Source: an uncultured Roseobacter sp. (GTDB lineage Bacteria; Pseudomonadota; Alphaproteobacteria; Rhodobacterales; Rhodobacteraceae). From it: a stretch of 64,000 nucleotides of DNA. The notes under the pieces were generated by a model, which saw only the letters and a program-made list of their open reading frames with translations, had not been told where the DNA came from and ran no database searches. Below are positions 42,225 to 52,153 of the stretch, piece after piece; position 1 is the stretch's first letter; every line of letters starts with the position of its first letter. The position numbers and the translations under genes are program-made. Where the stretch lies: NCBI GenBank assembly GCA_947501635.1, contig CANMWT010000008.1, positions 1-64,000 on the forward strand. Reading direction: 5' to 3'.

Positions 42225-42395
42225 CGCGCTTTACCGCGCAGCAACAGCGTCTCACGGCAGCGCAACACGCGACTCAAATCGAGATTTAACATCATATTTT
42301 CAGCAACTTACGCCACAATTTAACGGGCTCACCTTCGCGCTCAGCCGGTGGACCAAGGCAAAGAACTTTCGTGCCTCCGCACAGAGCCTGGGCCG

Positions 42396-42425
42396 TTGAC
42401 TTCACCAACCGTCATTGAAAATAAG
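42396..42425 (+). promoter_or_regulatory. Possible topA promoter
   Basis: TTGACT at 42396-42401 is followed about 18 bases later by AATAAG (42420-42425), some 65 bp before the topA start. The -10 match is weak. The rest of the gap 42225-42491 shows no gene. Confidence 0.25.
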
Positions 42426-42491
42426 GTCTTGCACACCATTTGTCTCACCGCCATAGACACAAGATATCATTGCTCAGAGGTACCAATATTT

Positions 42492-45077
42492 ATGCCGGTA
42501 GTTGTCGTCGAGTCCCCAGCAAAAGCAAAGACAATCAACTCCTATCTGGGTGACAATTATACGGTTCTGGCCTCTTACGGTCACGTGCGCGACCTGCCGC
42601 CCAAAGACGGCTCTGTCGATCCGGACGCCGCATTCGAGATGCAATGGGAAGTGGCAAACGACAGCCGCAAACACGTTAAAGCAATTGCGGATGCCCTCAA
42701 GGAAGACAACGCGCTGATCCTCGCGACCGACCCGGATCGCGAAGGCGAAGCAATCAGCTGGCACTTGCAGGAAGCGCTCACCAAGCGCAAATCGATCAAG
42801 AAGGACACACCGGTCAGCCGTGTGGTCTTCAATGCCATCACCAAAGCCGCCGTTACCGAGGCCATGCAAAACCCCCGTCAGGTGGATATGCCCCTTGTCG
42901 AAGCCTATTTGGCACGGCGCGCGCTGGACTATCTTGTGGGCTTCAATCTCAGCCCCGTCTTGTGGCGCAAACTGCCGGGGGCCAAGTCGGCCGGCCGCGT
43001 GCAATCGGTCACCCTGCGGCTGATCGTGGAGCGCGAGATGGAAATCGAAGCCTTCCGGGCGCGCGAGTACTGGTCTGTCAAAGCGCTGCTGGCCACACCG
43101 CGTGGACAGGAATTCGAAGCCCGCCTCACGGTTCTGGCAGGCAAAAAGCTTGAACGCTTTGATATCGAGAATCAGACACAGGCGGAGATGGCCGTTCAGG
43201 CGATCACCAGCCGAGACCTGAAAGTTACGTCCGTTGAGGCCAAACCAGCCACGCGGAACCCCTCTGCGCCTTTCATGACCTCTACGCTGCAGCAGGAAGC
43301 CAGCCGCAAATTCGGAATGGGCGCGCGCCAGACCATGAGCACGGCCCAACGCCTGTATGAAGCCGGATACATTACGTATATGCGTACCGACGGTATCGAC
43401 ATGGCCCCGGAGGCCGTGAGCGCCGCGCGCGATGCGATTAAATCGCTCTATGGCGATCAATACGTGCCCAAAAGCCCACGCATGTACAAAAACAAAGCCA
43501 AAAATGCGCAAGAAGCCCACGAATGCGTGCGCCCAACGGATATGATGACCAAGGCGGAAGATCTGAAAACGACCGACGCGGATCAACGCAAACTCTACGA
43601 TCTGATCTGGAAACGGACGCTCGCTTGCCAGATGGAAGCAGCACGCCTTGAGCGGACAACGGTCGATATCGGCAGCGCGGATGAGCAGGTCGGGCTGCGC
43701 GCAACAGGTCAGGTGATGCTTTTTGACGGTTTCCTGCGCGTCTATGAAGAAGGACGCGACGATGTCGTAGTGGACGATGACGACAAACGCCTGCCCCAGA
43801 TCGACCAATCGGATGTGCTTGAAAAGCGTACCATCGCGCCGGAGCAGCACTTTACCCAACCGCCCCCGCGCTACACCGAGGCCACGCTTGTCAAACGTAT
43901 GGAAGAGCTTGGGATTGGGCGCCCATCGACATATGCGTCCGTGGTCACCACCATTCAGGACCGCGAATATGTCCGCAAAGAGAAAAATAGGCTGATCCCG
44001 GAAGACAAAGGGCGGCTGGTCACGGCGTTTTTGTCGAACTATTTCCGCAAATACGTAGGCTATGATTTTACCGCCGATCTTGAAGATCAACTTGATACGG
44101 TCAGTGCGGGTGAAGCAGACTATAAGGAAGTGTTGGGCCGGTTCTGGCGCGATTTTTCAGCCGCCATCGCCGAGACGGCTGATTTGCGCATCACCGAGGT
44201 ATTGGAAAAGATCAACGAGGTGCTTGAGCCGCACCTTTTCCCGCCGAACGAAGACGGCAGCGATCCGCGTTTGTGCCCCAACTGCGGGGCCGGTCGCCTG
44301 AGTATGCGCACCGCGAGGTCCGGTGGCGCCTTCATCGGCTGTTCAAACTACCCTGAATGCCGCTACACGCGCGCCTTTGGCCCCCCCGGTCAGGAAGACG
44401 ACAGCGGCATCCCGCCAGAGGGCAAGCTGTTGGGTGAAGACGCGGGCGACAAGATTTACGTCTTTAAGGGCCGCTTCGGACCTTATGTTCAGCGTGGTGA
44501 AGTGTCTGATGACAACAAAAAACCGCCGCGACAGTCGATTCCCAAAGAATGGCCCCCTGAGGAAGTCGATTTGCCGCAGGCACTTAAACTGCTCTCGCTT
44601 CCGCGCGAAATTGGCCCGCATCCCGAGGATGGCGTGACGGTCTGGTCGAATATCGGGCGCTACGGCCCCTATCTCAAACATGCGCCTTCCACATCGGATC
44701 GCGGCGGGACCAACGCAAACCTTGAAAGCATTGACGAAGTCTTCACCGTCGGGATGAACCGTGCGGTACAGCTGCTTGCTGAGAAAGTTGCAAGTCGTGG
44801 GGGTCGTGGCGGCGTCGCGAAAACCCTGCGCGAATTGGGTGAACACCCTCATGAAGGCGGGCCTGTCAACATCATGGAGGGCAAATACGGGCCCTATGTG
44901 AAGTGGGATAAAATCAATGCGACGCTGCCCAAAGACAGCAACCCGGAAGAGCTTACGCTGGACACGGCCGTGACCCTGATCGAGGAGAAAGCCGCGCAGA
45001 AGGGCAAAAAGCGCCGCAAGACACCCGCCAAAAAGCCGGCCGCCAAGAAAAAAACAGCAGCCAGCAAAAAGGCGTGA
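42492..45077 (+). CDS. topA: DNA topoisomerase I
   Basis: An 861-residue type IA topoisomerase that relaxes negative supercoils. The Toprim domain opens at VVVVESPAKAKTI and has TDPDREGEAISWHL; the active tyrosine is in ITYMRTDG. A four-cysteine zinc ribbon (CPNCG and GCSNYPEC) and repeated C-terminal modules (YVFKGRFGPYVQRG, NIGRYGPYLKH, EGKYGPYVKW) follow, ending in a lysine/alanine tail. The ATG at 42492 matches the family start; the frame is open upstream. Confidence 0.97.
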   Translation: MPVVVVESPAKAKTINSYLGDNYTVLASYGHVRDLPPKDGSVDPDAAFEMQWEVANDSRKHVKAIADALKEDNALILATDPDREGEAISWHLQEALTKRKSIKKDTPVSRVVFNAITKAAVTEAMQNPRQVDMPLVEAYLARRALDYLVGFNLSPVLWRKLPGAKSAGRVQSVTLRLIVEREMEIEAFRAREYWSVKALLATPRGQEFEARLTVLAGKKLERFDIENQTQAEMAVQAITSRDLKVTSVEAKPATRNPSAPFMTSTLQQEASRKFGMGARQTMSTAQRLYEAGYITYMRTDGIDMAPEAVSAARDAIKSLYGDQYVPKSPRMYKNKAKNAQEAHECVRPTDMMTKAEDLKTTDADQRKLYDLIWKRTLACQMEAARLERTTVDIGSADEQVGLRATGQVMLFDGFLRVYEEGRDDVVVDDDDKRLPQIDQSDVLEKRTIAPEQHFTQPPPRYTEATLVKRMEELGIGRPSTYASVVTTIQDREYVRKEKNRLIPEDKGRLVTAFLSNYFRKYVGYDFTADLEDQLDTVSAGEADYKEVLGRFWRDFSAAIAETADLRITEVLEKINEVLEPHLFPPNEDGSDPRLCPNCGAGRLSMRTARSGGAFIGCSNYPECRYTRAFGPPGQEDDSGIPPEGKLLGEDAGDKIYVFKGRFGPYVQRGEVSDDNKKPPRQSIPKEWPPEEVDLPQALKLLSLPREIGPHPEDGVTVWSNIGRYGPYLKHAPSTSDRGGTNANLESIDEVFTVGMNRAVQLLAEKVASRGGRGGVAKTLRELGEHPHEGGPVNIMEGKYGPYVKWDKINATLPKDSNPEELTLDTAVTLIEEKAAQKGKKRRKTPAKKPAAKKKTAASKKA

Positions 45078-45118
45078 CTGTCCTCTCAAGATGTTTTGCA
45101 GCGAAAATGGATATGATC

Positions 45119-45149
45119 TTTCTCTAGGACCCTGTCCTAGCGATATAAT
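45119..45149 (+). promoter_or_regulatory. Promoter with dyad operator before scoA
   Basis: CTAGGAC (45124-45130) and GTCCTAG (45134-45140) form a perfect 7-bp dyad with a 3-base spacer. TATAAT follows at 45144-45149, and a weak -35 (TTCTCT or near) lies about 19 bases before it. A dyad in a long spacer recalls MerR-type promoters, including LiuR-like regulators of acyl-CoA metabolism; simple repression is equally possible. The start of scoA is 110 bp downstream. Confidence 0.5.
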
Positions 45150-45259
45150 CTTGTGCTAGCATGACCTGTGAAATACAAAAGCGCCAAAGCTACCACCATA
45201 ATGGTGAAAGCAAACGATCGGCGACTTCTGGTTTAGCCGACCAGATGTGAGGAAGCGAA

Positions 45260-45955
45260 ATGAAGAAAGTGTATAGTTCGGCGTCTGAAGCGCTGGATGG
45301 GGTGTTGAAAGACGGCATGTTGATTGCCGCAGGGGGTTTCGGTTTGTGCGGAATTCCAGAACTTTTACTTTCTGCAATCCGCGATGCAGGCACCAAGGAC
45401 CTGACATTTGCCTCCAACAACGCGGGGGTCGATGACTTTGGCATCGGCATTCTGCTGCAGACCCGGCAGGTCAAAAAGATGATCTCTTCCTACGTTGGCG
45501 AGAACGCCGAGTTTATGCGCCAGTATCTGTCAGGTGAGTTGGAACTGGAGTTCAACCCGCAAGGCACATTGGCCGAGCGGATGCGCGCAGGTGGCTGTGG
45601 CATCCCGGGTTTTTACACCAAAACCGGCGTCGGCACGGTGATCGCCGATGGTAAGGAACACAAAGACTTTGACGGTGAGACCTATATTCTCGAGCGCGGG
45701 ATTGTAGCAGATTTGTCCATTGTCAAAGCGTGGAAAGCGGATGCGACAGGCAATCTGGTGTTCCGCAAGACTGCGCGCAACTTCAACCCGCCAGCTGCAA
45801 TGTGCGGCAAAATCTGCGTCGTGGAAGTGGAAGAGATCGTGCCGACCGGCAGCCTTGATCCGGACAGCATCCATCTGCCCGGTATCTACGTGCATCGATT
45901 GATTCAAGGCGAACATGAAAAGCGTATCGAACAGCGGACAACACGTGCCGCCTAG
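45260..45955 (+). CDS. scoA: 3-oxoacid CoA-transferase subunit A
   Basis: A 231-residue alpha subunit of family I CoA-transferase. GGFGLCGIPE is the characteristic N-terminal loop, with SNNAGVDDFGIG and SYVGENAEF following. With ScoB it transfers CoA from succinyl-CoA to acetoacetate, linking ketone-body or polyhydroxybutyrate metabolism to acetyl-CoA. GAGGAAG precedes the ATG. The next gene, 11 bp on, is not scoB but a LOV histidine kinase. Confidence 0.96.
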   Translation: MKKVYSSASEALDGVLKDGMLIAAGGFGLCGIPELLLSAIRDAGTKDLTFASNNAGVDDFGIGILLQTRQVKKMISSYVGENAEFMRQYLSGELELEFNPQGTLAERMRAGGCGIPGFYTKTGVGTVIADGKEHKDFDGETYILERGIVADLSIVKAWKADATGNLVFRKTARNFNPPAAMCGKICVVEVEEIVPTGSLDPDSIHLPGIYVHRLIQGEHEKRIEQRTTRAA

Positions 45956-45966
45956 GGCAATCATTT

Positions 45967-47019
45967 ATGGCTGACACCACTCTTAAACATAAACACGACA
46001 GCGAAGCCGATGCGCCGCAGTTTGACGATCTCAACTTCGAGGGCTTTGCGCGTGCCAAAGTGTCGATGGTTCTGACCAATCCGAACCTTGAAGACAACCC
46101 GATCGTCTATGTGAACGAAGCGTTCACGCGCACCACCGGATATGCCCGTAGCGCCTCTATCGGGCGCAACTGCCGGTTCCTTCAGGGCGATAAAACCGAC
46201 AAGGCAACCGTGGACGTGCTGCGCAGCGCAATTGGTGTGGAACAGAACGTCACCGTCGACATTCTGAACTATAAAGCCAGCGGTGCGCCCTTCATGAACC
46301 GTCTGATCGTGTCGCCCATTGTCGATGAAAAAGGCGTGACACAATATTTCGTCGGGATCCAAAAAGAGCTGCGCAATGGCGAACGTGACCCAAGCGCAGA
46401 CAAGATCAACGAACAGTTGATGGAAGTGCAAAACCGCGTCCACTCCGATCTGTCGATGATCATCTCGATGATCCGTCAGCAAACGACGGCGACTTCGGTG
46501 CCCGATGACTTTGCCGCCCTCAGCCGGCGGATCGAAACGTTGCAGCTTCTCTATGAAGAGATGAAGCTCGCGGATCAGCAGTCAAATCGGGATACGATCC
46601 AGATGGGCAGCTTTATTTCGCGGCTTGCAAGCGCAATCGCCCACGTCGAAGGGCGCTCTGGTGTCCGCATGAACATGCAAATCGAGCCATTGGAGGTCCC
46701 GATTGAGGTGGCCACGCGGGTTGGTCTGGTTGCATCAGAGCTTTTGACGAACGCCTTCCAGCACGCCTTTCACCGCATGGACACAGGGCTGGTCGAGATG
46801 CGCATGTCCCAGTTGAGCGCGGGCGGGCTTCGCCTGATCGTGTCGGATGATGGCATTGGCATTCCATCCTCGATGGAATGGCCGTCGCGCGCGACCGTCG
46901 GCGGGCGGATCATATCGGGCCTGATTGAAGGCCTTGAAGGCACATTGCATCTGGGCCGCGGTGCCGCGGGCAGCTTCGTAACAATAGACGTGCCCGCTGG
47001 CGCGTCGGTCACTGATTAA
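45967..47019 (+). CDS. LOV-domain blue-light sensor histidine kinase
   Basis: A 350-residue protein. The LOV domain (about 20-135) has the flavin-cysteine motif GRNCRFLQG with the adduct cysteine C69. A HisKA_2-type helical region (about 145-220) and an ATPase lobe (about 235-345, N-box SELLTNAFQHAF, G-box DDGIGIP) follow. Aligned to the family pattern EVHHRVKNNL, the sequence reads EVQNRVHSDL: the usual phospho-accepting histidine is Q155, and a histidine is present four residues later (H159). It is soluble and sits between scoA and scoB, 11 and 15 bp from each, clearly in the same operon. No response regulator is adjacent. Confidence 0.93.
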   Translation: MADTTLKHKHDSEADAPQFDDLNFEGFARAKVSMVLTNPNLEDNPIVYVNEAFTRTTGYARSASIGRNCRFLQGDKTDKATVDVLRSAIGVEQNVTVDILNYKASGAPFMNRLIVSPIVDEKGVTQYFVGIQKELRNGERDPSADKINEQLMEVQNRVHSDLSMIISMIRQQTTATSVPDDFAALSRRIETLQLLYEEMKLADQQSNRDTIQMGSFISRLASAIAHVEGRSGVRMNMQIEPLEVPIEVATRVGLVASELLTNAFQHAFHRMDTGLVEMRMSQLSAGGLRLIVSDDGIGIPSSMEWPSRATVGGRIISGLIEGLEGTLHLGRGAAGSFVTIDVPAGASVTD

Positions 47020-47034
47020 GAATAGGACAGTTTT

Positions 47035-47661
47035 ATGCCTTGGGATCGCAACCAGATGGCCGCGCGTGCCGCACAGGAATTGGAAGACGGCTGGTACGTT
47101 AATCTAGGAATCGGCATTCCGACGTTGGTCAGCAACTATATTCCCGAGGGAATAGAAGTCACGCTGCAGTCTGAAAACGGGATGCTGGGCATGGGTCCCT
47201 TCCCCGTTGAAGGCACAGAAGATGCCGACCTTATCAACGCGGGCAAGCAAACCATCACCGAATTGCCCCAGACCGCGTATTTCGACAGTTCGCAGTCCTT
47301 CGGGATGATTCGTGGCGGCAAGATCGCCATGGCGATCCTTGGCGCGATGGAAGTTGCCGAGAATGGTGACCTGGCCAACTGGATGATCCCGGGCAAACTG
47401 GTCAAGGGCATGGGCGGCGCGATGGATCTGGTTGCCGGTGTGGGCCGTGTTGTTGTCGTGATGGACCACACGTCGAAACATGGTGACAGCAAACTGCTTA
47501 AGGAATGCACGCTGCCCCTGACAGGCAAAGGTGTGGTTGACCGCATCATAACCAACCTTGGTGTGCTGGATGTTGTCGAAGGTGGTCTCGCGATTGTGGA
47601 GACAGCAGAAGGCGTCACCGAAGACGAACTGCGCGCCGCGACCGAAGCGACGATTGTTTAA
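47035..47661 (+). CDS. scoB: 3-oxoacid CoA-transferase subunit B
   Basis: A 208-residue beta subunit. [30 protein letters not shown] is the family start, and [12 protein letters not shown] holds the catalytic glutamate that forms the CoA thioester. It completes the enzyme with ScoA although the genes are separated by the LOV kinase gene. Confidence 0.96.
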
Positions 47662-47692
47662 CGGCCGCAGGCGCGCGCCAACGCTCTCAACG

Positions 47693-48541
47693 TCAATTAA
47701 GACCAGCAAACACGCAGCCGTCCGAAACTAGCTCGGGTGGGGTCAGGCATAGTCCGCGCGCCACCTGAAACGCCGCCAGCACCTTGGGCACATAGTCTCG
47801 TGTCTCAGAATAGGGCGGAACACCGTCATACTTCTTAATAGAGCCCTCGCCCGCGTTGTAGCCGGCCAGTACAACGATCGGGTCTCCGTCAAACTCTTCC
47901 ATGAGCCAGTCAAGGTATCGCACGCCGCCGCGAATGTTCTCACGGGGCGACATCGAATCTTCCACGCCGAAGCGGGCTGCGGTTGCAGGCATTAGCTGCA
48001 TCAGGCCCTGCGCGCCCGCGGAACTGACAGCGTCGGTCTGTCCTGCCGATTCCACCGATATTATTGCGAGGACCAATGCGGGTGAGACGCGCGTGCCAAC
48101 GGTTGTGCGCAGAATATCCGCTCCGTTGCTGCGTGCTATTTCCTGCAAGTGCTGCAATCTTGGCTGCGGAATACCGCCTGTACCCTGCAAGACATCCAGC
48201 GCCGTAAAGAGCCGACCCGGCCCCGAAGCCCTCAGAGACGGAGAAATCTGGTTCCAGAACCAGCTGTAGGCGCCAATTTCCAGATCCTCTTTGTCCACGC
48301 CTTCGGGAAAAACCTCGGGCGTGGCACGCGGTTCTCTGTCCGGCGCAGTGGCGTTCGGCAACGCAGCAAGCAGGCGTGCCTGCTCTGCAGGGTCGATCTG
48401 AACGATGCTGCGCCTTTCGCCCGCTTTCGGGACGGACACGCGTTTTGCGCTGAAATCAGGGAACGTGTTGGATGTTTCTGAGAAAACTGGTGCACTGAAC
48501 GCCAGCGCCGCCATGAGACTCACGGAGATCGTCATTTTCAT
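47693..48541 (-). CDS. Lytic transglycosylase (SLT domain)
   Basis: A 282-residue exported protein: signal peptide (cleavage near FSAPVFSE), an unassigned N-terminal region (to about 140), and a C-terminal SLT domain with catalytic glutamate in ISVESAGQ, then GAQGLMQLMPATAARFG and LAGYNAGEGSI. It cleaves peptidoglycan. It is divergent from the Tad pilus genes and could open the wall for the pilus, although housekeeping is as likely. Confidence 0.93.
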   Translation of the reverse strand: MKMTISVSLMAALAFSAPVFSETSNTFPDFSAKRVSVPKAGERRSIVQIDPAEQARLLAALPNATAPDREPRATPEVFPEGVDKEDLEIGAYSWFWNQISPSLRASGPGRLFTALDVLQGTGGIPQPRLQHLQEIARSNGADILRTTVGTRVSPALVLAIISVESAGQTDAVSSAGAQGLMQLMPATAARFGVEDSMSPRENIRGGVRYLDWLMEEFDGDPIVVLAGYNAGEGSIKKYDGVPPYSETRDYVPKVLAAFQVARGLCLTPPELVSDGCVFAGLN

Positions 48542-48893
48542 ATGTGCTGCTCGAGTTCTTGTTTTGCTATTTTGTAAACAATATCGCAGGTTTGGGCCCT
48601 TCTGGCCAGAAAATCCGCGACGGGATCACGGCGATTTCGCCACATTCTCCCTCCACTTTAACAAACAGTAAACACTAGACCCAAAATTATTTGTTTAAAA
48701 TCAATATACTAAAAAGTTTTTTCCGACTTTCTTTATGCAAACTGCAAAAGTCACATTTGTCGCCAAATTCGCGCCCCAATCAAACGGCTATATAGCTGCA
48801 TACCAAGTCGGACAGACCACCAGAGAGAAACGGTCACTGAGTACGGCAAGGTTAGTAAGTGTGAAATCAAGTGATCCTTTGGAGGGACAAACC
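48542..48893. other. Intergenic region upstream of flp
   Basis: A 350-bp AT-rich region between the divergent transglycosylase and first pilin genes, with no gene seen. It should contain both promoters. TTAAC-(N6)-TAAAC at 48658-48673 resembles a CtrA box with one mismatch; in Caulobacter the pilin gene is CtrA-controlled. GGAGGGA at 48881-48887 is a strong ribosome site for the pilin. Confidence 0.5.
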
Positions 48894-49094
48894 ATGATGA
48901 AATTTATCAAAAACTTTCGTAAAGACGAAGACGGCGCCGTTACAGTTGACTGGGTTGTACTGACAGCTGCTGTTGTCGGTCTCGCGGTTGCAGCGTACAG
49001 CACCATCTCCGATGGCGCAGACAACCTGACAGCGAACACGTCAGACTACCTGAACCAGCAAGACCTGTCTGCCTTCGAGAACATCTCTGACTAA
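48894..49094 (+). CDS. flp: Flp family type IVb pilin, copy 1
   Basis: A 66-residue prepilin. A charged leader (MMKFIKNFRKDEDG) is followed by cleavage at G/A and the hydrophobic helix AVTVDWVVLTAAVVGLAVAA. The usual E5-Y6 of Flp pilins is D5-W6. The frame is open upstream, but GGAGGGA before the ATG at 48894 sets the start. This would be the main pilus subunit, processed by the peptidase encoded at 58999. A terminator follows, allowing high expression as a single-gene message. Confidence 0.92.
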   Translation: MMKFIKNFRKDEDGAVTVDWVVLTAAVVGLAVAAYSTISDGADNLTANTSDYLNQQDLSAFENISD

Positions 49095-49124
49095 TATCCG
49101 TTCAGCTTAACGGACAGACATTCA

Positions 49125-49164
49125 AGGGGGGCCGCTTTCCGATTAATTCGCGCGGCCCCTTTTA
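49125..49164 (+). terminator. Terminator after flp copy 1
   Basis: GGGGCCGC and GCGGCCCC with a loop of about 15 bases, followed by TTTTAC, form an intrinsic terminator about 30 bp past the pilin stop. Confidence 0.7.
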
Positions 49165-49202
49165 CTTATCCATGACCACGTTCCAGTCATAAGGGTTTTG
49201 AT

Positions 49203-49469
49203 ATGTTGAAGTTTATGAAGCGATTTTCAGCGGACGAAGATGGTGCAGTCACCGTTGACTGGGTCGTGTTGACTGCCGCAGTTGTAGGCCTTGCCGCGGC
49301 ATCCGTCGCCGAGATCAGAGGCAGCAGTGGCGCCTTGAGCGGCCAGACCGCCGACTACCTGAACCGCCAGGATCCATCGACACGAGGCAACATTCAGGAC
49401 TTTGTTAACCGCAGCCCGGCCAGTACCGAAAACAACACGCCCTCGGATCAGACCAATACCGGCGGCTAA
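49203..49469 (+). CDS. Flp family type IVb pilin, copy 2
   Basis: An 88-residue prepilin paralogous to the preceding gene: leader MLKFMKRFSADEDG, cleavage G/A, then TVDWVVLTAAVVGLAAA. The shared DYLNxQDxS segment follows, but this copy has about 20 extra residues rich in Asn, Thr and Ser (ending NTPSDQTNTGG). It may be a minor or alternative pilin. It has its own terminator. Confidence 0.9.
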   Translation: MLKFMKRFSADEDGAVTVDWVVLTAAVVGLAAASVAEIRGSSGALSGQTADYLNRQDPSTRGNIQDFVNRSPASTENNTPSDQTNTGG

Positions 49470-49477
49470 AGGACCAA

Positions 49478-49506
49478 CCCGCTGACTCCAGCGGGCTTTG
49501 TCATTT
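49478..49506 (+). terminator. Terminator after flp copy 2
   Basis: CCCGCTG and CAGCGGG form a 7-bp stem with an ACTC loop, followed by CTTTGTCATTTT, about 10 bp past the stop codon. Confidence 0.7.
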
Positions 49507-49720
49507 TATATGACGGTCACAAAAGAATTTTCTCTGCGCCGCGCACCTGAATTGTCACCAGCCCCCCAAAGCATGGAAACAATTGTCTGAAAACATTCCG
49601 ACAGTTCGCCGCGCAGATACCATCAGTCAAACCACAAAATGCCACAATCAGGCAAAATATTAGCGATTGAAGCTCTTACCATACCGATGGCCGGGCACAG
49701 TCAAACAACGAGGTGACAAA

Positions 49721-50569
49721 ATGCGAGTAATTTTCGGACTGGTACTTCTGGCGGGCGTCGCGCTTGCTGGCGGTGCCGTGTACATGGCCAAAGACTACAT
49801 CGGCCAATACCAAACCGAGCTGGCACGCGCGAAACAAATGCAAAGTGCCATTGTGCCGACACAGACAGTTTACGTAGCATCCCGCATGCTGAGCTATGGC
49901 GATGTACTTGAACCCGACGATGTGCGCGCAGTGAACTGGCCCAAGGATGCGATCCCTGCCGGCACGTTCAGCGACCTCGCAGCCCTGTTTCCGGAGGATA
50001 CTGACCAGCCGCGTCTGATCGTGCGTGCCATGGAAGAGAACGAAGCGGTTCTTGCAGTCAAAGTCACCGAGCCAGGTGAGGACATCGGCCTGACCACACG
50101 TCTTGAAAAAGGCATGCGCGCCTTTACCATCCGCGTGGACGTTGCAAGCGGCGTGTCTGGCTTCCTGCGCCCTGGCGACAAAGTTGATGTTTATTGGACA
50201 GGCCAAATCGCCGTGGGTGATGGTGCACAAGATGTCACCAAGCTGATCCAGACGGCTGTGCGGCTTATCGCCGTTGACCAGACGGACAACCAGATGAACG
50301 GCACACGCATTGCCAGAACAGTCACGGTCGCCGCCAAACCCGAGCAGGTTGCGGCGCTCGCCCAAGCCCAGTCGACCGGCAAACTTTCCCTGTCGCTTGT
50401 GGGTGCCGGCGACGATACTGAAATCGACGAGATCAAAGTGGATCAGGTTTCATTGCTGGGACTGAAGCAGGCCGCACCGGTGGCAAAAGCGCCCGAAGAA
50501 AAGGTTTGCACCATCAGAACGCGCCGTGGCGCCGAGTTGGTGGTCATTCCAATCCCCTGCACAAACTAA
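49721..50569 (+). CDS. cpaB: Flp pilus assembly protein CpaB
   Basis: A 282-residue CpaB/RcpC protein with one N-terminal span (FGLVLLAGVALAGGAVYMA) and a SAF domain (about 55-120, VYVASRMLSYGDVLEPDDV). The C-terminal part VRAMEENEAVLAVKV and GFLRPGDKVDVYWTGQ is typical. It helps pilus assembly at the secretin. GAGGTGAC precedes the ATG. A strong terminator follows, so cpaC starts a new transcript. Confidence 0.93.
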   Translation: MRVIFGLVLLAGVALAGGAVYMAKDYIGQYQTELARAKQMQSAIVPTQTVYVASRMLSYGDVLEPDDVRAVNWPKDAIPAGTFSDLAALFPEDTDQPRLIVRAMEENEAVLAVKVTEPGEDIGLTTRLEKGMRAFTIRVDVASGVSGFLRPGDKVDVYWTGQIAVGDGAQDVTKLIQTAVRLIAVDQTDNQMNGTRIARTVTVAAKPEQVAALAQAQSTGKLSLSLVGAGDDTEIDEIKVDQVSLLGLKQAAPVAKAPEEKVCTIRTRRGAELVVIPIPCTN

Positions 50570-50586
50570 GCAAAATCAAACCCTTA

Positions 50587-50617
50587 AAAAGGCGCAGCGT
50601 CCCCCGCTGCGCCTTTT
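50587..50617 (+). terminator. Terminator after cpaB
   Basis: AAAAGGCGCAGCG and CGCTGCGCCTTTT form a 13-bp stem with a short C-rich loop, ending in TTTT, 18 bp after the stop of cpaB. Confidence 0.85.
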
Positions 50618-50761
50618 GCTATTTCTGCGTGTTGCCAATTATCCACATAAGCTGCCTCGCAGAAGTCATTGATTATTGCAAAAAATTGGATTTCCGCGCA
50701 CAGTCATCCACATGCGGGCAGTAGACCCGTTCCCGAGGCGTGATCAAAAAGGGCAGGTCAC

Positions 50762-52153
50762 ATGAAAAATTATGGAATACTGAAAGCAGCCCTACTCGGG
50801 CTGACGATCGGCGTGAGTCCACTGGCCTTTACGGCTCCAGTGACCGCTCAAGCTGAAACACTTCGCGTTATAACGCGCGACACAAACGACGCGCTGTCTG
50901 TTGCACAGAACCGCGCGGTTGTTGTTGAAAGCGAAATTCCTTTCGCCGAACTCAGCATCGCCAATCCTGGCATTGCTGATATCTCCTCTCTCTCGGATCG
51001 CAGCATCTATGTGTTGGGTAAAATCCCCGGCATCACGACGCTGACACTTTTGGATGCAGCCGGACAGCTCATCACAAACGTGGAAGTACGCGTGGCACCG
51101 GATCTGACCGAGTTTAAAGAACGTCTGCAGCAGATCCTGCCAGGCGAAAACATTCAGGTACGCACTGCGAACGATGGGATTGTCCTCTCCGGACAGGTGT
51201 CCAGCACGCAGCGTTTGTCTAAGGCACTGGAACTGGCAGCACGTTATGCACCAGACCGGGTGTCCAACCTGATGTCAGTCAGCGGCGTTCAGCAGGTAAT
51301 GCTGAAAGTACGCTTCGCAGAAATGAGCCGCGGTGTCTCCAAGTCGCTGCAAAGCTCACTGCGTATTAACGGCACAGACGCCCAAGCAGGCGTAGGTCGC
51401 GGCATTGCCGGCGTCCCCAACCTTGCCGGCGACAGCTCGCAAGGCGCTGTTTTCTTTGACTTCGGGCTTGGCTCTGTCCAGGTACAGCTGCTGCTTGAAG
51501 CACTGGAAACAAAGGGCGCAGTCAGAACACTGGCTGAACCAAACCTTGTTGCACTCTCCGGACAGGAAGCGAACTTCCTTGCGGGTGGTGAATACCCCGT
51601 CCCTGTTCAAAGTGACGACGGTATCAGCATCGACTACAAACCTTTCGGTATCGAGCTGAACTTCGTACCGCGTGTTGTCGACCGCGATCTGATTAACCTG
51701 CAGCTTTCTGCCGCGACTTCGACAATCGACCCCTCCAACGGGATCACCGTCGATGGTGGCTTTACAGTCGATGCCTTTATCCGCCGCGAAGCAGCCACAA
51801 CGGTTGAAATGCGCGACGGGGAAAGCTTTGCAATTGCGGGTCTTCTCGAAGACAGCTTCAACGATTCGGTTTCTCAGGTACCATGGATCGGCGACGTGCC
51901 GATACTGGGCGCGCTTTTCCGCTCGACGGACTATGCACGCAACCAGACAGAGCTTGTGATCATCATCACTGCCCATCTGGTCAGCCCGACTCGCGGTGAA
52001 GCACTCGCCTTGCCAACGGATCGTATCAAACCCCCGTCCGAGGCGGACCTGTTCCTGAACGGGCACACTGTCAAAACACTGAATGCCAGTGGTGCTGCTG
52101 GCGAAGTCGCCAAACAGGACTTCATCGGCTCCTATGGCTACGTGATGGAGTGA
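50762..52153 (+). CDS. cpaC: Flp pilus secretin CpaC (RcpA)
   Basis: A 463-residue outer-membrane secretin with a signal peptide. The N-terminal BON/STN-like part includes AVVVESEIPFAELSIANPGIADI and ITTLTLLDAAG; the secretin core (about 240-420) has LAEPNLVALSGQEANFLAGGEYPVPV and VPWIGDVPILGALFRS. It forms the pilus pore. It is followed 4 bp later by a small lipoprotein gene. Confidence 0.95.
   Translation: MKNYGILKAALLGLTIGVSPLAFTAPVTAQAETLRVITRDTNDALSVAQNRAVVVESEIPFAELSIANPGIADISSLSDRSIYVLGKIPGITTLTLLDAAGQLITNVEVRVAPDLTEFKERLQQILPGENIQVRTANDGIVLSGQVSSTQRLSKALELAARYAPDRVSNLMSVSGVQQVMLKVRFAEMSRGVSKSLQSSLRINGTDAQAGVGRGIAGVPNLAGDSSQGAVFFDFGLGSVQVQLLLEALETKGAVRTLAEPNLVALSGQEANFLAGGEYPVPVQSDDGISIDYKPFGIELNFVPRVVDRDLINLQLSAATSTIDPSNGITVDGGFTVDAFIRREAATTVEMRDGESFAIAGLLEDSFNDSVSQVPWIGDVPILGALFRSTDYARNQTELVIIITAHLVSPTRGEALALPTDRIKPPSEADLFLNGHTVKTLNASGAAGEVAKQDFIGSYGYVME

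Follow-up and report, generated by a model that had tools for sequence, protein, structure and literature searches.

A predicted LdaP ortholog of Roseobacter: a LOV protein without phosphoacceptor histidine, encoded between scoA and scoB

What does a light sensor built like a histidine kinase do between the two subunit genes of a CoA-transferase, and how does it act once the residue to be phosphorylated is gone? The question is raised by a LOV gene in the window, i.e., the whole stretch of 64,000 nucleotides of an uncultured Roseobacter sp. analysed here (Table 1). The packing of scoA, the LOV gene and scoB on a single strand with gaps of 11 and 15 bp, described in an earlier note on this DNA, is confirmed, and the statement that no response regulator is adjacent fits the genes seen around the LOV gene. 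Beyond the transglycosylase gene, an apparent start of a Flp pilus locus occupies positions 48735-52153, with Pfam matches to RcpC/CpaB (49667-50569) and secretin (50762-52153) and a small ORF (48735-49094) having no Pfam match. A promoter scan gave 3 promoter-like sites, compared with 1.4 (sd 1.3) in shuffled sequence, none of them upstream of scoA on the + strand; the terminator scan found 2, compared with 3.5 in shuffles.

Table 1. Features of the LOV gene and its neighbours, in window coordinates.
Feature	Position	Strand	Basis
Predicted LdaP ortholog, 350 aa: N-terminal LOV, degenerate HisKA_2/DHp-like helices, HATPase	45967..47019	+	
LOV domain, residues 34-134	46066..46368	+	PAS_9 E 1.8e-15; YtvA_fam E 8.8e-40 (under its cut-off)
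C69, predicted flavin adduct cysteine	46171..46173	+	aligned to EL346 GRNCRF; Cys in 37/37 His-less rows
DHp-like helix pair, residues 143-203	46393..46575	+	AlphaFold model; HisKA_2 E 8e-05
N156, site of lost phosphoacceptor His	46432..46434	+	alignment to EL346
H159-S160-D161 (K, N, H in His-bearing relatives)	46441..46449	+	family alignment
HATPase/CA domain, ~residues 210-345, N/G1/G2/G3 boxes intact	46594..47001	+	profile, alignment, AlphaFold model
scoA, 3-oxoacid CoA-transferase subunit A	45260..45955	+	TIGR02429 (pcaI_scoA) E 6e-70, over cut-off
scoB, 3-oxoacid CoA-transferase subunit B	47035..47661	+	TIGR02428 (pcaJ_scoB) E 9.9e-99, over cut-off
topA, DNA topoisomerase I; upstream border of conserved locus	42348..45077	+	PF01131 E 1.9e-127
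Lytic transglycosylase (SLT); downstream border in many relatives	47693..48541	-	PF01464 E 3.9e-25

Phosphoacceptor box, LOV cysteine and ATP site

Among proteins of solved structure, the best match to the window protein is EL346, a monomeric LOV kinase from Erythrobacter litoralis (PDB 4r3a, E 4.7e-87); the two are alike over their full length, with 44% identity. EL346 is also the best structural match (Foldseek E 1.6e-34) of the AlphaFold model, in which mean pLDDT is 79.1, residues 1-28 and 173-179 fall below 50, and blocks within 141-170 reach 64-77. EL346 keeps the acceptor His in an HRVKNH box, whereas the window protein has N-R-V-H-S-D. In the alignment, the acceptor of EL346 (EVQ-H-RVKNHL) falls on N156 (EVQ-N-RVHSDL), and the phosphoacceptor His of the HRVKN box is absent from the window protein. 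The earlier note had named Q155 as the lost acceptor; this residue is Gln in EL346 as well, and the motif used for the comparison (EVHHRVKNNL) contains two His, the first of which was mistaken for the acceptor.

Homologs were sought in 395 Rhodobacteraceae genomes at E 1e-40 or better and were found in 41 of these (46 genes, 17 encoding His-less and 29 His-bearing proteins). Plasmid relatives (11 records) have 31-33% identity. The LOV protein LdaP (Dshi_1135), described from Dinoroseobacter shibae, has 338 aa and carries R148 in the place of the acceptor His (PMC10890935). By its length (338 aa), GRNCRFLQ at 58-65, C61, R148 and 42% identity to EL346, locus L027 corresponds to this protein. 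His-less proteins, including LdaP and the window protein, form one clade with support of 98/97 when the H-box columns are excluded, and a quick tree also groups them together. Various residues occupy position 156 in these proteins (N, D, S, R, G, E), suggesting several independent losses of His; this was rejected, as the tree needs one change only, a result recovered in 98% of 200 bootstrap trees. In nine of the 17 Marivita genomes (L115-L123), the copy located at sco is His-less and a second LOV kinase, encoded elsewhere, retains the His; the two may divide the labour.

The residues after the former acceptor were compared in 78 aligned rows (49 His-less, 29 His-bearing; sample, genus members and named loci, some genomes entered twice). 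Positions H+3, H+4 and H+5 are K, N and H in all 29 His-bearing proteins. The Asn at H+4, a residue that takes part in phosphatase chemistry, is missing from 48 of the 49 His-less rows (S160 in the window protein), so that a phosphatase of the usual kind, one of the options in the earlier note, is unlikely. At H+5, 47/49 His-less rows have Asp (D161, replacing His). Class-specific positions beyond the H-box are few (K133, D161, L201, D203, F264, T326, A334 and some more).

H159 had been put forward as an alternative acceptor. On this reading, the protein would still be an active kinase whose acceptor has moved to H159 or some other residue, and it would phosphorylate an unlinked response regulator. 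Both the intact ATP-binding boxes and the location of H159 three residues from the usual acceptor place speak for this reading. However, the alignment puts H159 at H+3 and not at the canonical acceptor position, and the residue is not conserved, His being found there in 7/49 His-less rows and Gln in an 81%-identical ortholog (L004/L019). Autophosphorylation of LdaP was detected neither by 32P nor by Phos-tag in the assays described in passages of its paper (PMC10890935). A kinase with a shifted acceptor is therefore very improbable. The term pseudokinase, also proposed in the earlier note, is supported, as both the acceptor and the remainder of the H-box are gone across a single clade that includes LdaP.

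Two further readings of the earlier note were confirmed: the LOV adduct motif is intact, C69 lying within GRNCRFLQ, and so are the ATPase boxes, with N-box and G1 residues verified by alignment. Among the 37 His-less rows of a 72-row set, the LOV Cys is kept in all, and 36-37 retain the residues of the N, G1, G2 and G3 boxes; the sole departure, L052 (G184), has changed N-box Asn and His and G2 Gly. As judged from these alignments, loss of the phosphorylation site while the ATP site is fixed is the most unusual feature of these proteins. dN/dS of LOV genes is 0.04-0.09 in five pairs (rough values, as dS is 0.9-2.5), which indicates purifying selection. One His-bearing homolog, L061 (G054), has Trp replacing the LOV Cys and resembles PAS kinases mentioned in a passage of PMC10359499.

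Position between the CoA-transferase genes

Both scoA and scoB flank 28 of the 46 homologous genes of the sample (16/17 His-less, 12/29 His-bearing), so the arrangement is not due to chance, and the survey proposed in the earlier note upholds the synteny. The 12 sco-linked His-bearing proteins branch outside the His-less clade, which suggests that the gene already sat at sco before the His was lost. At 8 of these 12 loci, the fetched stretch includes topA and/or the transglycosylase gene; it is short for L037, L042 and L043, and in L064 its 7 kb contain neither border gene. Although sco linkage requires 9 changes on the tree, the position was probably inherited from a kinase ancestor already there, repeated insertion being the less probable alternative.

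Eleven His-less loci are not flanked by both sco genes, and eight of them were inspected in wider stretches (G404, G411, G395, G407, G397, G151, G402, G398). All eight have an intact LOV gene in the interval from topA to the transglycosylase gene, and none has scoB in this interval. Next to the LOV gene, scoA is whole in G404 and broken into two fragments in G411. G395 and G397 retain only a short remnant of it, G398 gives a weak match (E 2.7e-4), and no scoA was detected there in G407, G402 or G151. Six of the eight genomes were searched, and each has both scoA and scoB elsewhere; in G151 the two are separated by other genes. Three LOV-gene pairs involving scoB-less loci have dN/dS of 0.04-0.07. 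In G404, the whole scoA beside the LOV gene (L093, G404:C1:1437300-1444300) coexists with a complete scoAB elsewhere, and ppsR and pufM are absent.

The tight packing in 28/46 genes would suit a protein through which light controls the CoA-transferase itself or the use of acetoacetate/PHB, and the earlier note had coupled the sensor to ketone-body metabolism. However, the LOV gene is not kept only with scoA/scoB: it stays intact at eight loci with no adjoining scoB and with scoA ranging from whole to undetected, while sco genes reside elsewhere in the genomes searched. Furthermore, scoAB is present in 37 of the 40 LOV-less genomes searched. As the sco neighbours are eroded and the LOV gene is not, the sensor does not appear to work through the CoA-transferase; coupling as a function is unsupported, and a regulator of these enzymes is highly unlikely.

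In those 40 LOV-less genomes, the distance between scoA and scoB is within ~60 bp in 29 (judged by eye), ~220-280 bp in five, and 1.9-4.6 kb in three (G018, G055, G063); three have no match. The idea that the LOV gene is the only interruption of scoAB was rejected on these distances. Loci L082-L085 contain, between scoA and scoB, a GSCFA-family gene (G151), a KptA-family gene among others (G055) or other sequence (G018, G063). The scoA-scoB junction may tolerate insertions. The sco location of the LOV gene is real, probably old and probably incidental, and it may supply transcription to the gene without being its target.

Orthology to LdaP and the company of ppsR

The window protein and LdaP are 57% identical and share their domains, the His-less clade, the LOV Cys and the ATP boxes. 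Their loci have the same order, topA-scoA-LOV-scoB-SLT, and both genomes have ppsR and pufM. LdaP differs in having R148 where the window protein has N156, and its function has been shown, whereas the window protein is known by sequence. On this comparison, the window gene is assigned as the Roseobacter ortholog of LdaP. A literature search for LOV domains with CoA-transferase in Rhodobacter found nothing, and the LdaP paper does not use the word scoA in its main text (PMC10890935).

Passages of that paper describe LdaP as an antirepressor, in its dark state, of PpsR, the repressor of photosynthesis genes, with a photocycle requiring C61 (PMC10890935). Derepression in E. coli took place in the dark only, and two-hybrid contact with PpsR was seen in one orientation only. 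LdaP co-purified with PpsR, with a Western signal mainly in the dark and PpsR peptides in light too, and according to the same passages no cognate response regulator was recovered (PMC10890935).

The window's own genome contains ppsR (TIGR02040, E 1.2e-121) and pufM (E 7.2e-162), both on contig G000:C12. Sample-wide, ppsR is found in 158 and pufM in 155 of the 395 genomes; all 17 genomes with the His-less form have both, and 12 of the 24 having only His-bearing homologs have ppsR. The window's genus has the gene in 18/19 genomes, 17 of them ppsR-positive; the other member, G401, has neither the gene, nor ppsR, nor a scoAB match, and may simply have lost the whole locus. In Marivita, the His-less gene is present in 13/17 genomes, 12 of these having ppsR. 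When pooled (the sample's 17, the window's genus, Marivita and G425, three shared genomes counted once), 44 of 46 His-less genomes are ppsR-positive, the exceptions being G404 (99% complete) and G436 (87% complete), both without pufM. Genomes of the named loci are ppsR-positive in 13/14 cases; judged by contig coordinates, 13 of these 14 are already counted elsewhere, the negative G422 equals G436, and the genome of L012 is outside the count. Fisher tests, which ignore kinship and are descriptive only, gave p 0.013 within the two genera, 4e-4 in comparison with genomes having only the His-bearing form, and 1e-7 in comparison with all other genomes of the sample.

Since His was lost once on the tree, this association represents retention within one clade and not independent events. 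PpsR does not need an LdaP-type protein, as the His-less gene is missing from 141 of the 158 ppsR-positive sample genomes, among them G341, which shares its genus with G028, the genome of LdaP. It is also missing from the ppsR-positive Marivita genomes G432 and G435. Substitution of LdaP for BLUF proteins was considered and rejected: 10/17 His-less sample genomes also have a BLUF match, AppA and short BLUF proteins being counted together, and there is no exclusion. PpsR-type sites (TGT-N12-ACA) are absent from window positions 44800-47700, and among the loci of 21 relatives one match was found, just upstream of scoA in L016. With these sites nearly absent, the loci give no sign of PpsR feedback.

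A different output was considered, in which the kinase fold binds PhyR or the His-bearing LOV paralogs and acts in the general stress response as a light-gated phosphatase or competitor, with no phosphorylation. In passages of the respective papers, EL346 is said to act in this response (PMC10890935), and HWE/HisKA2 kinases at large are tied to it (PMC12148442); Marivita genomes with both forms (9/17) also agree with such a role. However, the H+4 Asn is lost almost throughout the clade, no cognate response regulator is reported among the proteins co-purified with LdaP (PMC10890935), and ppsR is in near-constant company, all of which makes the stress-response role unlikely.

The window protein is, with good confidence, a soluble photoreceptor derived from EL346-type HisKA_2 LOV kinases that has lost self-phosphorylation and acts by binding, as a dark antirepressor of PpsR. 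By analogy to LdaP, it would bind PpsR in the dark and block repression, so that photosynthesis genes are transcribed; in blue light, the FMN-C69 adduct would form, PpsR would be released, and photosynthesis genes would be turned off. Both the PpsR binding and the dark-on polarity would thus be carried over from LdaP to this species.

Relation to other sensory proteins

The LdaP kind, previously known from one species, would extend to a clade of marine phototrophs. This clade is a clear example of descent from histidine kinases with a single loss of the acceptor and an ATP site that remained fixed. It also makes neighbourhood and function separable, as the sensor persists where the sco genes erode. 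Two genomes of the window's genus, which we take to be R. denitrificans OCh 114 and R. litoralis Och 149, have a sco-linked N-type ortholog (79% identity) plus ppsR. In R. denitrificans, blue light is reported to block specifically the synthesis of bacteriochlorophyll, which suggests that a photoreceptor is involved (Iba and Takamiya 1989, cited in a passage of PMC10890935), and the one LdaP-type gene is a candidate for it.

Among the structural matches of the model, the NifL-NifA complex (9qq6) ranks 22, with 13% identity. NifL combines a flavin-PAS domain with a kinase-like ATPase domain and controls a transcription factor by binding; it senses redox, not light, and controls an activator. 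Tentatively, the nucleotide pocket of LdaP-type proteins might be retained because the output depends in part on ATP/ADP binding and not on phosphotransfer, giving a NifL-like switch that combines blue light and energy charge before PpsR is released or bound; the near-invariant D161 and the drifting position 156 might then mark a new surface at the former phosphorylation helix.

One sentence of PMC10359499 mentions a subgroup of EL346-like LOV-HKs missing the phosphoacceptor, very likely the same group as the LdaP clade; the section with this sentence reports neither a function nor the neighbouring genes. AppA and PpaA/AerR are, like LdaP, sensory proteins that bind PpsR/CrtJ, but they sense through BLUF or cobalamin, unlike the LOV-based LdaP, as described in a passage of PMC10890935.
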